DNA of 64,000 nt from the NCBI RefSeq assembly GCF_902626525.1, contig NZ_CACOFR010000002.1, positions 1 to 64,000 of the forward strand. The letters are read 5' to 3'. Of the stretch, positions 46,055-50,232 are shown piece by piece. How positions within the stretch are numbered: the first letter of the stretch is position 1; every line of letters begins with the position of its first letter. This DNA comes from an uncultured Prochlorococcus sp. (GTDB taxonomy: Bacteria; Cyanobacteriota; Cyanobacteriia; PCC-6307; Cyanobiaceae). The notes beneath the pieces are model-generated. The model did not search any database, was not told where the DNA came from, and saw only the letters and a program-made list of their open reading frames with translations. The translations under genes were made by a program, and so were the position numbers.

Positions 46055-46306
46055 GAAAAATATAGAGTTTCTATTGAAATTAAGTAATCTTACATGATTC
46101 AATGATAGATCAATACGAAACATTTCACGTAAATGATCATTTTGATAATTAATTTTTTTATTTTTCCTATGTAAGTTTGTTTCTTTATTGTGCTTTTTTC
46201 TTTTTTTTCTTTTAACTTATATCTATATACAGGTTAGGTATTAACATTTAAGATATCTTCTAACCAAAAACTCATCTAGTTAACTACCAAAAGGAGTTTT
46301 ATTAAA

Positions 46307-47263
46307 TTGGAAATCATTGAGTCAGATGTAGTTATTATCGGAGGAGGTCCAGCAGGATGTACTTGCGCACTTTATACATCTCGTTCAAACTTAAAGACTG
46401 TAATTTTAGATAAAAATCCATCTGTTGGTGCCTTAGCAATAACTCATCAGATAGCTAATTATCCCGGTGTTCCAGTTGATATAAGTGGTGAAAAATTACT
46501 TACTCTTATGAGAGAACAGGCTGTTCAATACGGTACCGACTATAGAAGAGCACAAGTGTTTGGCATAGACGCTAGTGGAGAATGGAAAATGGTTTATACA
46601 CCCGAGGGCACCTTCAAGGCTAAAGCACTTGTTCTTGCAAGTGGAGCCATGGGTAGGCCTGCATCATTTAAAGGAGAGGCGGATTTTCTTGGCAAAGGAG
46701 TAAGTTATTGTGCTACTTGTGATGGAGCTTTTTATAAAAACAGAGAAGTTGCCGTTGTTGGAGCTAATAAGGAGGCAATTGAAGAAGCATCTGTTCTTAC
46801 TAAATTTGCATCAACGGTACATTGGATTACATCAAGTGATCCTAAATCAGATAATGAAGAAGCTATGGAATTGATGGATAATTCAAATATAAAACATTGG
46901 AGCAGAACAAGATTATTGGAAATTTTAGGCGATGATATGGGTGTAAATGGTGTTATTGTAAAAAATAAGCAAGAGGAAAATCCTATCAATTTAAATTTAG
47001 ATGGTGTTTTTGTTTATATGAGTGGTTCAAAGCCAATTACTGATTTTTTAGGGGATCAGATCGCTTTAAAAGATGATGGAGGAGTTGTTGTAGATGATTT
47101 TATGTCTACAAATTCAGATGGAGTATGGGCTATTGGTGATATAAGGAATACACCATTTAAGCAAGCAGTTGTAGCAGCTTCTGATGGATGTATAGCAGCA
47201 ATGTCAATTGATAGATATTTAAATAGTAGAAAAAATATAAGAGTTGATTGGATTCACTCTTAG
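46307..47263 (+). CDS. Thioredoxin-reductase-like flavoprotein lacking NADPH motifs
   Basis: The 318-residue protein has the TrxR fold: FAD motif VIIGGGPAGCTCALYTSRSN (from residue 9), the redox CATC at C135-C138 in SYCATCDGAFY, and the FAD-site GVWAIGDIRNTPFKQAVVAA. The second dinucleotide motif is degraded: residues 151-157 read VGANKEA where NADPH enzymes have GGGxSA, and the 2'-phosphate-binding HRR region reads VHWITSSDPK. The tail RKNIRVDWIHS extends past the usual end. This fits ferredoxin-dependent or diflavin-type TrxR-like enzymes reported from cyanobacteria better than NADPH-TrxR. TTG start with AAGGAG 10 nt upstream (46291-46296). Confidence 0.85.
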   Translation: MEIIESDVVIIGGGPAGCTCALYTSRSNLKTVILDKNPSVGALAITHQIANYPGVPVDISGEKLLTLMREQAVQYGTDYRRAQVFGIDASGEWKMVYTPEGTFKAKALVLASGAMGRPASFKGEADFLGKGVSYCATCDGAFYKNREVAVVGANKEAIEEASVLTKFASTVHWITSSDPKSDNEEAMELMDNSNIKHWSRTRLLEILGDDMGVNGVIVKNKQEENPINLNLDGVFVYMSGSKPITDFLGDQIALKDDGGVVVDDFMSTNSDGVWAIGDIRNTPFKQAVVAASDGCIAAMSIDRYLNSRKNIRVDWIHS

Positions 47264-47293
47264 AAACTAAATATTATCTCTCCTTGTAAACTT

Positions 47294-47575
47294 TTAAAGG
47301 GGTGTTGCTTCAGAAATATAAGCAACTCCTCCGTAATAGCTTAAATCATCTCTAATATTATCCCGCATTTTATCTATTAATTCTTGTTCACAAAAAACAA
47401 TTACGTGAGCATTTGATCCTAATCCTGTAAATTCCATATCTTCAGTAACAACTCTTTCAGGACCTCTTCCTGTGGCGTGTTTCATAACTGTATATCCTGG
47501 AACATTAGCTTTTTCTAATGTTTTAATGATTGCATCTAGCTCTCTTTCACTAAAAATTAGGTCTAATCTTTTCAT
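47294..47575 (-). CDS. sbtB: PII-like protein, SbtB-type
   Basis: The 93-residue protein resembles PII-superfamily proteins: MKRLDLIFSERELDAIIKTL, a T-loop region with HATGRGPERVV, and AHVIVFCEQELIDKMRDNI as the second half of the ferredoxin-like fold. SbtB proteins bind adenine nucleotides and control the bicarbonate transporter SbtA. Here the gene starts 2 nt after sbtA in the same direction, which supports that assignment. The C-terminal cysteine loop of canonical SbtB is absent: the protein ends YYGGVAYISEATPL. Symbol given on context and fold. Confidence 0.8.
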   Translation of the reverse strand: MKRLDLIFSERELDAIIKTLEKANVPGYTVMKHATGRGPERVVTEDMEFTGLGSNAHVIVFCEQELIDKMRDNIRDDLSYYGGVAYISEATPL

Positions 47576-47577
47576 TT

Positions 47578-48576
47578 TTATAAAGGATAAATTGGGATAA
47601 TGGTATTTACTAAACTCATATAAATTGGAATGCCAAGAACTATATTGAATGGAAAAGTAAGACCTAGTGTTGTTGAAATATAATAACTAGATTTTGCTTC
47701 TGGTACTGTCATCCTCATAGCAGCAGGAACTGCTAAATACGAGGCGCTAGCACATAAAACCACAAATAAAAGCGCATTGCCAGGTGCCAAAGATAAAAAT
47801 CTTGCAACGAAAACACCTATTAATGCGTTAAACAAAGGCATTAAGATTGCAAATCCAATTAGAAATGAACCTGCATTTTTAAGTCTTGGCAATCTTTGAG
47901 CAGCAACAATTCCCATATCTAATAAGAAGAAGCATTCTGCTCCATAAAATAATTGTCCAGTAAATGGCTCCATTTTTGTAATTCCAGAGGGATTACTTGA
48001 AGCAGTGAGAAATCCTACAATAAGGCTTGAAAGTAATAAATACACTGATCCATTCAAAAGAGATTCATGTAATATTGCTCTGAGATGCATTTTCCTAGAT
48101 TTTGGTCTATTTTTGGGAGCTGCGAATTTTACAAGTAATAATCCTACTATTATTGCAGGAGACTCCATCAAAGCTAAAGCACCGACCATAAAACCATCGA
48201 AAGCAATTTTTTGGCTTTCTAAAAAACTCTCTGCAGAAATAAATGTAACGGCGCTAATTGAACCATAAGCTGCTGCAATTGCTGCCGAATTAAAAACGTC
48301 AAATTTAAATCTTAAAATTAAAAATCCAATTAGAGGGATTAAAAGAGACATTATTATCGCAGCACTTAAAGTTGGTAAAACCTGATCAGTAAAACCACTT
48401 TTCTGTATCTCTATTCCTCCTTTAAAACCAATAGCCAACAGCAGATATAAGGAAAACAGTTTAGGTAATGGAGCTGGTATTTCCAAATCAGATTTAAAAA
48501 GTACTGATATTGCTCCAATTAAGAAGAAAAGAACTGGCGGAGCTAATACATTTTGCAGAATTGGATTTATTTCCAT
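47578..48576 (-). CDS. sbtA: SbtA-family sodium-dependent bicarbonate transporter
   Basis: The 332-residue integral membrane protein has about ten hydrophobic segments and motifs of the SbtA (DUF897) family: NVLAPPVLFFLIGAISVL at the N-terminus, LLAIGFKGGIEIQKSG, AAAYGSISAVTFISA, ECFFLLDMGIVAAQRL, and ASASYLAVPAAMRM in the last third. SbtA takes up bicarbonate with Na+. The gene lies 6 nt after bicA and 2 nt before the PII-like gene, so the three form one operon. Marine picocyanobacterial SbtA homologs are distant from the freshwater type, so transport kinetics cannot be assumed. Confidence 0.85.
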   Translation of the reverse strand: MEINPILQNVLAPPVLFFLIGAISVLFKSDLEIPAPLPKLFSLYLLLAIGFKGGIEIQKSGFTDQVLPTLSAAIIMSLLIPLIGFLILRFKFDVFNSAAIAAAYGSISAVTFISAESFLESQKIAFDGFMVGALALMESPAIIVGLLLVKFAAPKNRPKSRKMHLRAILHESLLNGSVYLLLSSLIVGFLTASSNPSGITKMEPFTGQLFYGAECFFLLDMGIVAAQRLPRLKNAGSFLIGFAILMPLFNALIGVFVARFLSLAPGNALLFVVLCASASYLAVPAAMRMTVPEAKSSYYISTTLGLTFPFNIVLGIPIYMSLVNTIIPIYPL

Positions 48577-48582
48577 AGATTA

Positions 48583-50232
48583 TTAGGCTAGTTCATTTAA
48601 AGCAGTTTCTAGGGCTTCTTTCCTCGTTTCAATGATTCCTTCAACTCCAAACTTAGCTAATCTATCCTTTACTTTTTCATTTGCTCCAGCAACAAATGCT
48701 TTTCTAGAGTTATTTTTTGCTTCTTGCATCATATCCTCAATTGCGAGAGTGGCAGTTACTCCAAGTCTTGGTACATCAGTAATATCTAATATTAAAATTT
48801 TGTAGTTTCTTACAAGCATCATTCTTTCAGATATGCCTTTGGCTGCTCCAAAACTAAGTGGTCCTTTAAGTCTAAATAGCATTACTTCTCCTGCACATCT
48901 ATCTAGTAGTGCTTTTTCATCAGCAGGTAATGCATTTTTAGCTTGATTATCTTCTGATAAAGGATTATCCTCATCCATACCCTCAAGTTGAGTTTCGGTT
49001 ATTGAATCGATAGTGAGCATATTTGCTATAAATACACCTACTAAAACTGCCCAAATTAAATCCCAAAAAACAGTCATAAGAAGTACGCCGTACATTACTA
49101 CTGAGGTTTTTAAAGATAATTTATGAGCCCTTCTCAAGAATCCCCAATCAATAATATCCAGACCTACTTTTATAAGAATTCCTGCAAGCAACGCAGTTGG
49201 GATTTGCTCAGCTAAAGGTCCTGCACCAACTAAAACTATAAACAATACTAATGAGTGAACCATACCTGAGATAGGAGTCGAGCCTCCAGATTTGACATTT
49301 ATAACGGTTCTCATTGTTGCTCCCGCTCCAGGTAAACCTGAAAATAGGCCTGCAACAGCATTTCCTATCCCTTGACCAATAAGTTCCCTATCAGAATTAT
49401 GTTTTGTTTGAGAGATATTGTCTGCTACTAAAGAAGTAAGTAAAGAGTCAATTGCGCCAAGTACGGCGAGGACTAATCCTGCCTTAAAAATAATTGGGAA
49501 ATATTGGTTAAAACTTGGGAAGTTTAACGATGGGACTCCTTTTGGAATTTCTCCAATTCTATCAAGTGCTACATCTCCAAAAAATAATGATATTGGAGTT
49601 ACTATCAATAGGGCCAAAAGAGGAGAAGGAACCCATTGACTTATTTTTCTAGGGGTTAAAAATACTATACCTAGTGTCATAATTGCAACTCCAATTGCAG
49701 CACCGTTTGGTTGGAAATTTGAAAATACAGTAGATAAAGATTCAACTACTCCACCACGAGTGCTAATCCCTAATAATGGCCCAATCTGAAGTGCAATGAT
49801 TATTACTCCAATGCCAGACATAAATCCGGAAACAACAGAATATGGGACTAGAGTTATATATTTACCAAGTTTTAGAATTCCGAATAATATTTGTAGTAAT
49901 CCCCCAATTACTACTGCTGCCATTACTAAAGGTAAAATTTGCCCTGCGGAAAGATCTCTTGGAACTCCAACTGCTGCTAAACCTGCTACTACACCAGCCA
50001 CAGTTACACTCATGGGACCAGTAGGGCCACTAACTTGAGCAGGCGTTCCGCCGAATAATGCTGCTAAAAAACCTACTACAACTGCTCCATATAGTCCATA
50101 AATTGCTCCGCCAGGCCCTAACGCAGCATTGCCAAAAGCAAGGGCTAGAGGTAATGCCACCACTGCGGCAGTGATACCTCCAAGAATATCGCCTCTTACA
50201 TTTTTTAGATGAAATCCATTAATTATTTTCAA
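48583..50232 (-). CDS. bicA: SulP-family anion transporter, BicA-like
   Basis: The 549-residue protein has an N-terminal SulP membrane domain with roughly 12-14 segments (RGDILGGITAAVVALPLALAF, FGGTPAQVSGPTGPMSVTVAG, DSLLTSLVADNISQTKHNSD, NAVAGLFSGLPGAGATMRTV) and a C-terminal STAS domain (about 445-549). BicA is a Na+-dependent bicarbonate importer. SulP sequence alone does not exclude sulfate as the substrate; linkage to sbtA and a PII-like gene favours bicarbonate. The start is TTG at 50232 with AGGAG about 7 nt upstream. It is the first gene of the operon. Confidence 0.85.
   Translation of the reverse strand: MKIINGFHLKNVRGDILGGITAAVVALPLALAFGNAALGPGGAIYGLYGAVVVGFLAALFGGTPAQVSGPTGPMSVTVAGVVAGLAAVGVPRDLSAGQILPLVMAAVVIGGLLQILFGILKLGKYITLVPYSVVSGFMSGIGVIIIALQIGPLLGISTRGGVVESLSTVFSNFQPNGAAIGVAIMTLGIVFLTPRKISQWVPSPLLALLIVTPISLFFGDVALDRIGEIPKGVPSLNFPSFNQYFPIIFKAGLVLAVLGAIDSLLTSLVADNISQTKHNSDRELIGQGIGNAVAGLFSGLPGAGATMRTVINVKSGGSTPISGMVHSLVLFIVLVGAGPLAEQIPTALLAGILIKVGLDIIDWGFLRRAHKLSLKTSVVMYGVLLMTVFWDLIWAVLVGVFIANMLTIDSITETQLEGMDEDNPLSEDNQAKNALPADEKALLDRCAGEVMLFRLKGPLSFGAAKGISERMMLVRNYKILILDITDVPRLGVTATLAIEDMMQEAKNNSRKAFVAGANEKVKDRLAKFGVEGIIETRKEALETALNELA

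Follow-up and report, generated by a model that had tools for sequence, protein, structure and literature searches.

The window analyzed here, a stretch of 64,000 nucleotides from an uncultured Prochlorococcus, contains a gene for a thioredoxin-reductase-like protein with an altered NADPH site. This raises the question of which electron donor the enzyme uses. A first-pass annotation had proposed ferredoxin or a second FAD, and had suggested that the enzyme links light-driven electron flow to thioredoxin in a marine picocyanobacterium lacking an NADPH-dependent thioredoxin reductase. Judged by its sequence and by analogy with the characterized Gloeobacter enzyme, the gene very probably encodes the Prochlorococcus ferredoxin-dependent flavin thioredoxin reductase (FFTR), with the mechanism of its Gloeobacter counterpart.

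Sequence motifs and relatives of the protein

The open reading frame has the extent given in the first-pass annotation, and the intact FAD motif and CATC disulfide, the altered HRR site and the aromatic C-terminal tail were all confirmed (Table 1). The claim that the glycines of the GxGxxA motif had been lost holds in part: N154 replaces the second glycine, while G152 and A157 are still present. In the alignment of 35 FFTRs, GGGPAG, CATC, D314 and W315 are invariant (35/35). Position 154 is asparagine in 34 proteins and serine in one, so that the second glycine is lost in all of them; therefore, on this alignment, N154 is a trait of the family rather than decay of the window copy. Residues 175–177 read HRR in none of the 35 proteins, and the Gloeobacter chain has VHWITPK at this site, making the replacement common to both proteins. 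The CATC motif is accompanied by the thioredoxin-binding motifs GKG (residues 129–131) and FY (142–143); the latter is FY and not FF, as also in the Gloeobacter structure 5J60. As these features are shared by relatives of as little as about 55% identity, the motif pattern, at the level of sequence, is not due to chance.

Table 1. Features of the FFTR gene and its vicinity (window positions)
Feature	Position	Strand	Remarks
Shine-Dalgarno-like AAAGGAG ahead of the TTG start	46290..46296	+	read from sequence
FFTR coding sequence	46307..47263	+	318 aa, TTG start
FAD-binding GGGPAG, residues 12-17	46340..46357	+	invariant in 35/35 aligned FFTRs
Redox-active CATC, residues 135-138	46709..46720	+	numbering equals Gloeobacter C135/C138 (PMC12796991)
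Former NADPH GxGxxA motif, VGANKEA, residues 151-157	46757..46777	+	second glycine is N154
Site of the NADPH 2'-phosphate HRR motif, VHWITSS, residues 171-177	46817..46837	+	
C-terminal tail RKNIRVDWIHS, residues 308-318	47228..47260	+	aligns with the 5J60/6XTF tail through residue 317
W315 codon	47249..47251	+	invariant in 35/35 FFTRs; Gloeobacter equivalent lies stacked on the FAD of the other subunit (PMC12796991)
P-II family (SbtB-like) protein	47294..47575	-	
FFTR with the convergent SbtB/SbtA/SulP-like block	46307..50232		

The best solved relative in a phmmer search of all PDB chain sequences was 5J60/6XTF (E = 1.7e-139, residues 1–317), described in PMC12796991 as the FFTR, formerly DTR, of Gloeobacter violaceus; the next thioredoxin reductase followed at E = 5e-56. 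Numbered from the methionine, the Gloeobacter chain has C135, C138 and W315, and the window protein has identical residues at the same numbers. The two proteins share a degenerate NADPH motif and are 66% identical, compared with 35% for Escherichia coli TrxB, 33% for the NTRC of the same genome and 25% for L139, which resembles the diflavin-linked disulfide oxidoreductases (DDORs). They differ in that Gloeobacter belongs to another cyanobacterial lineage and in that the window copy is one terminal residue longer. Pfam assigned the protein to general families of pyridine nucleotide-disulphide oxidoreductases and to further families that bind FAD or NAD. A structure prediction failed to give a usable model (pLDDT 33.9, pTM 0.27); its 27 input sequences comprised the window protein plus 26 relatives of 98–99% identity, taken from the 80 loci of the named-genome scan.

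The FFTR2 of Clostridium acetobutylicum (6GNC, named after PMC8469568) is also a ferredoxin-dependent flavin thioredoxin reductase. Unlike the window protein, it carries no C-terminal tail (PMC8469568), and it matched at E = 1.8e-30, that is, less well than many NADPH-dependent thioredoxin reductases. Hence the name FFTR covers two rather separate lineages. Clostridial FFTRs were left out of both trees described below.

A tree of 45 proteins placed the window protein among the FFTRs and not in a cluster with NADPH-dependent thioredoxin reductases. NTRC proteins formed one clade (support 99/96), as did DDOR proteins, on a long branch (100/100); the DDOR and NTRC labels of these outgroups were assigned in this analysis and checked for one DDOR protein, L139, whose best solved relatives are Slr0600 (5JRI) and Gloeobacter DDOR (5N0J/5ODE). 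The FFTRs were not recovered as one clade separate from both NTR/NTRC and DDOR, as the NTR/NTRC branch joined inside a polytomy of Prochlorococcus-type proteins. This is perhaps an effect of the very long outgroup branches.

The tree of the 35 FFTRs contained three groups: a Prochlorococcus type (19 proteins, 92/78), a Synechococcus type (13 proteins, 100/100), and Gloeobacter with two other families (3 proteins, 99/93). We considered horizontal transfer of the Prochlorococcus copy because the window protein is 72% identical to that of a cyanobacterium of another family (L123/L167) versus 55–65% to most Synechococcus-type FFTRs. This was rejected, as the FFTR-only tree is compatible with vertical descent if the Synechococcus type has changed faster. 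Cyanophage copies were sought in viral contigs by a method that reaches close relatives only, with three pattern matches and no relative as the outcome. Two FTR-bearing genomes (G169 and G156) have a very diverged FFTR (L173 and L179; 55–56% identity, branch length 1.23) with CATC and W315 retained; perhaps these proteins have changed their partner or task.

Could the protein depend on NADPH after all, with a binding site that is unusual but works? NADPH-dependent thioredoxin reductases and NTRC are homologous to the window protein and share its FAD motif and CxxC, its top NCBIfam model is the NADPH-type TRX_reduct (TIGR01292), and G152 and A157 of GxGxxA are kept. However, the TRX_reduct score falls under the cut-off (306.3 vs. 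343.45 bits), and neither the second glycine nor HRR at residues 175–177 occurs in any of the 35 FFTRs. By contrast, E. coli TrxB keeps both GGG and HRR, and NTRCs keep GGG, with VRS at the HRR site; neither type has the W315 tail. Moreover, the 66%-identical Gloeobacter enzyme cannot use NADPH (PMC12796991). We therefore regard a working NADPH site as highly improbable.

The other part of the earlier proposal, a second FAD, would make the protein a DDOR with this flavin bound in the former NADPH domain. DDORs are related in sequence and resemble the window protein in having a CxxC but no NADPH motif (PMC9025218). Two solved DDORs are among its matches, that of Gloeobacter (5N0J/5ODE, E = 2.3e-20) and Slr0600 (5JRI, E = 1.8e-17). 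The match to Gloeobacter FFTR is far stronger, though, and identity to four cyanobacterial DDOR-like proteins, which form the separate long-branched clade, is only 24–27%. The CxxC of these proteins is CMIC, in another context. DDORs have two flavins per subunit and occur, according to PMC9025218, in all groups except Prochlorococcus. The genome that contains the window yielded no DDOR-like match, while the same kind of search gave such matches in four other genomes (E from 5.7e-16 to 4.9e-20). The probability that the protein is a DDOR is thus very small, and of the two proposed alternatives it is ferredoxin that is supported.

Electron transfer to thioredoxin

For Gloeobacter FFTR, reduction by ferredoxin, the redox potentials and a crystal complex have been shown (PMC12796991). 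The potentials given there are −448 mV for FAD (ox/hq), −424 mV for ferredoxin, −356 mV for the active disulfide and −320 mV for NADPH. In the same paper, the tail residue W315 of one subunit lies stacked against the FAD of the other, and the authors propose that it moves out of the way before the disulfide comes to the flavin. The closed state, with the disulfide at the flavin, was modelled rather than crystallized.

The window protein probably follows the same cycle, given its relationship to the Gloeobacter enzyme and the invariant residues. Photosystem I would charge two ferredoxins, each of which would pass one electron to the FAD of the homodimer. The C-terminal tail of the partner subunit, whose W315 covers the flavin, would then swing away, allowing the CATC domain to rotate onto the flavin and the CATC disulfide to be reduced. 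The resulting dithiol would in turn reduce thioredoxin (TrxA). NADPH would not be used, because its site is degenerate and the FAD potential of the Gloeobacter enzyme is far below that of NADPH.

The assembly that contains the window (1.53 Mb, 44 contigs, 96.76% complete) encodes a plant-type ferredoxin, a flavodoxin-family protein and a TrxA-like thioredoxin of 107 aa with the WCGPC motif. Two thioredoxin-reductase-like matches were found in it, FFTR and an NTRC (G000:C1; 458 aa, with the GGG NADPH motif and a C-terminal thioredoxin domain), whereas searches for a free-standing NTR, DDOR, FTRC and FTRV gave no match. Thus, the suggestion that the organism lacks an NADPH-dependent thioredoxin reductase applies to the free-standing enzyme, of which none was found, and does not extend to NTRC. 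The literature varies on this point: in the introduction of PMC12796991 Prochlorococcus and Gloeobacter are said to be without NTRs, while PMC9025218, like this genome, shows an NTRC in Prochlorococcus.

The main partner of the Prochlorococcus enzyme might instead be a disulfide protein other than TrxA; a search of the open literature found no partner assay in Prochlorococcus. Against this, the thioredoxin-contact motifs GKG and FY beside CATC are kept, searches of the genome yielded no FTR or free NTR that could reduce the WCGPC thioredoxin instead, and FFTR or at least one FTR subunit is present in each of the 132 family genomes with completeness of 90% or more. We consider a partner of this kind most unlikely, and TrxA remains the expected substrate.

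The window enzyme is already known, being the usual Prochlorococcus form of an FFTR that has been described before. It agrees with the Prochlorococcus FFTR of PMC9025218 and PMC12796991 in family, organism group and the absence of FTR and free NTR, and no difference of substance was seen; the likeness is by description. The legend to Figure 3 of PMC9025218 names P. marinus SS120, and the window comes from another strain. Both papers describe FFTR as the sole thioredoxin reductase of Prochlorococcus and Gloeobacter. Hence the suggested role in linking light-driven electrons to thioredoxin via ferredoxin, supported here at the sequence level, had been published for Prochlorococcus before. A 2021 Plant Physiology paper reportedly deals with cyanobacterial FFTRs, and a 2017 paper is said to deal with the Gloeobacter enzyme. 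The 2026 review PMC13421787 does not mention FFTR.

Gene neighbourhood and start codon

In a scan of named genomes, the best 80 of 480 relatives were all 97–98% identical to the window protein; 77 of these 80 came from Prochlorococcus records, including MIT 9401 and MIT 9314, and three from uncultured Synechococcaceae records. The neighbouring genes, as identified by Pfam, encode enolase, an ABC1 kinase, a P-II family protein, a bicarbonate transporter of the Sbt_1 family, a sulfate-permease/STAS protein and delta-aminolevulinic acid dehydratase; an additional ORF of 128 aa has no family.

The FFTR gene converges on a block of P-II/SbtB-like, Sbt_1 (SbtA-like) and sulfate-permease-like genes. 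This arrangement was observed in 15 of the 18 Prochlorococcus-type regional loci (L149–L158, L160–L162, L165 and L166), and the block was not found beside FFTR in G054 or in either g29 genome. A functional link of FFTR with these neighbours was considered and rejected: although the arrangement is conserved widely, FFTR and the block are transcribed towards each other. SbtB proteins elsewhere carry a C-terminal cysteine pair. The SbtB-like protein of the window ends in VAYISEATPL and has no such pair, so thioredoxin control via the pair cannot be argued.

From the upstream stop codon to residue 13, this TTG is the only ATG, GTG or TTG codon. In most Prochlorococcus-type loci examined, the start is preceded by GGAG or a motif resembling it. 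Among loci with at least 70% identity, the start is TTG in 137 of 138 and GTG in one (L030), a count that includes many near-copies and some genomes twice. In the regional comparison, TTG was found in all 18 Prochlorococcus-type loci, which span 12 genus codes, and also in L167, from another family, while Synechococcus-type FFTRs start with ATG one codon upstream. A special meaning of the TTG start was rejected: eno of the same regions keeps GTG in 11 of 12 cases, which makes the conservation of a rare start codon unremarkable in this context. The sulP-like gene of these regions starts variably with TTG or GTG.

Distribution of FFTR and FTR

We surveyed 201 genomes of the family, counting FFTR at no less than 55% identity and FTR when either subunit was present. 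FFTR was found in 88 genomes (in G036 as a fragment at a contig edge), FTRC in 112 and FTRV in 109. FFTR only was observed in 75 genomes, FTR only in 103, both in 13 and neither in 10; each of the latter ten is at most 89% complete. In the 132 genomes with completeness of 90% or more, irrespective of contamination, the respective numbers were 38, 82, 12 and 0. The search for either FTR subunit can miss a gene, as 11 genomes, including G049 (94% complete) and G183 (99%), gave one subunit alone. PMC9025218 reports that Prochlorococcus and Gloeobacter are the only groups without FTR and that all their members have FFTR; our survey agrees with this. Among 291 genomes drawn more widely from the phylum, 254 lie outside the family; two of these had an FFTR-like match above 50% identity (G264 at 72% and G205 at 66%), and no hit among them was recognized as Gloeobacter.

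Several genomes stand out. G025 (locus L168; 1.9 Mb, 95% complete) has a Synechococcus-type FFTR that groups (97/87) with two proteins from FTRC-bearing genomes, and a search for both FTR subunits gave no match in it, although the two genes could, in principle, lie in assembly gaps. This suggests that FTR was lost a second time, in a separate event outside the Prochlorococcus-type lineage. G054 (L159), a single contig of 3.0 Mb and 98% complete, is the largest of the 75 FFTR-only genomes; it has a Prochlorococcus-type FFTR, no match for FTR and different gene surroundings, as the 19.9 kb examined around its FFTR contained none of the seven neighbours. Four FFTR-only genomes (G029, G071, G031 and G073; 94–99% complete) have a single thioredoxin-reductase-like match each, and for this reason they may lack NTRC too, which would leave FFTR as the only enzyme of its kind.

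FTR loss has already been tied to scarce iron (PMC9025218). FFTR could be an iron-saving switch, that is, it might also take electrons from flavodoxin under iron shortage, providing an iron-free route from photosystem I to thioredoxin. We hold this to be rather unlikely; the flavodoxin step is based on the presence of a flavodoxin-family gene, and the repeated loss on one genome, G025, beside the Prochlorococcus lineage. In the open literature, the scope of our search, neither an assay of Prochlorococcus FFTR nor one with flavodoxin as its donor was found: in PMC12796991 flavodoxin occurs once, in the reference list, and the flavodoxin passages of PMC8229018 concern a cross-linking control. 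If true, the switch would explain the repeated loss of the 4Fe-4S FTR among picocyanobacteria, only in lineages already holding FFTR. The either-or pattern of FFTR and FTR, together with the probable second loss of FTR, makes the idea easier to test.

The additions made here are modest, namely the FFTR and FTR counts across the family genomes and the case of G025. The either-or pattern in the 132 near-complete genomes and the probable second loss of FTR provide a small independent confirmation of the published picture. Few photosynthetic organisms are as abundant as Prochlorococcus, in which, on the published view, FFTR is the sole connection between ferredoxin and thioredoxin control.
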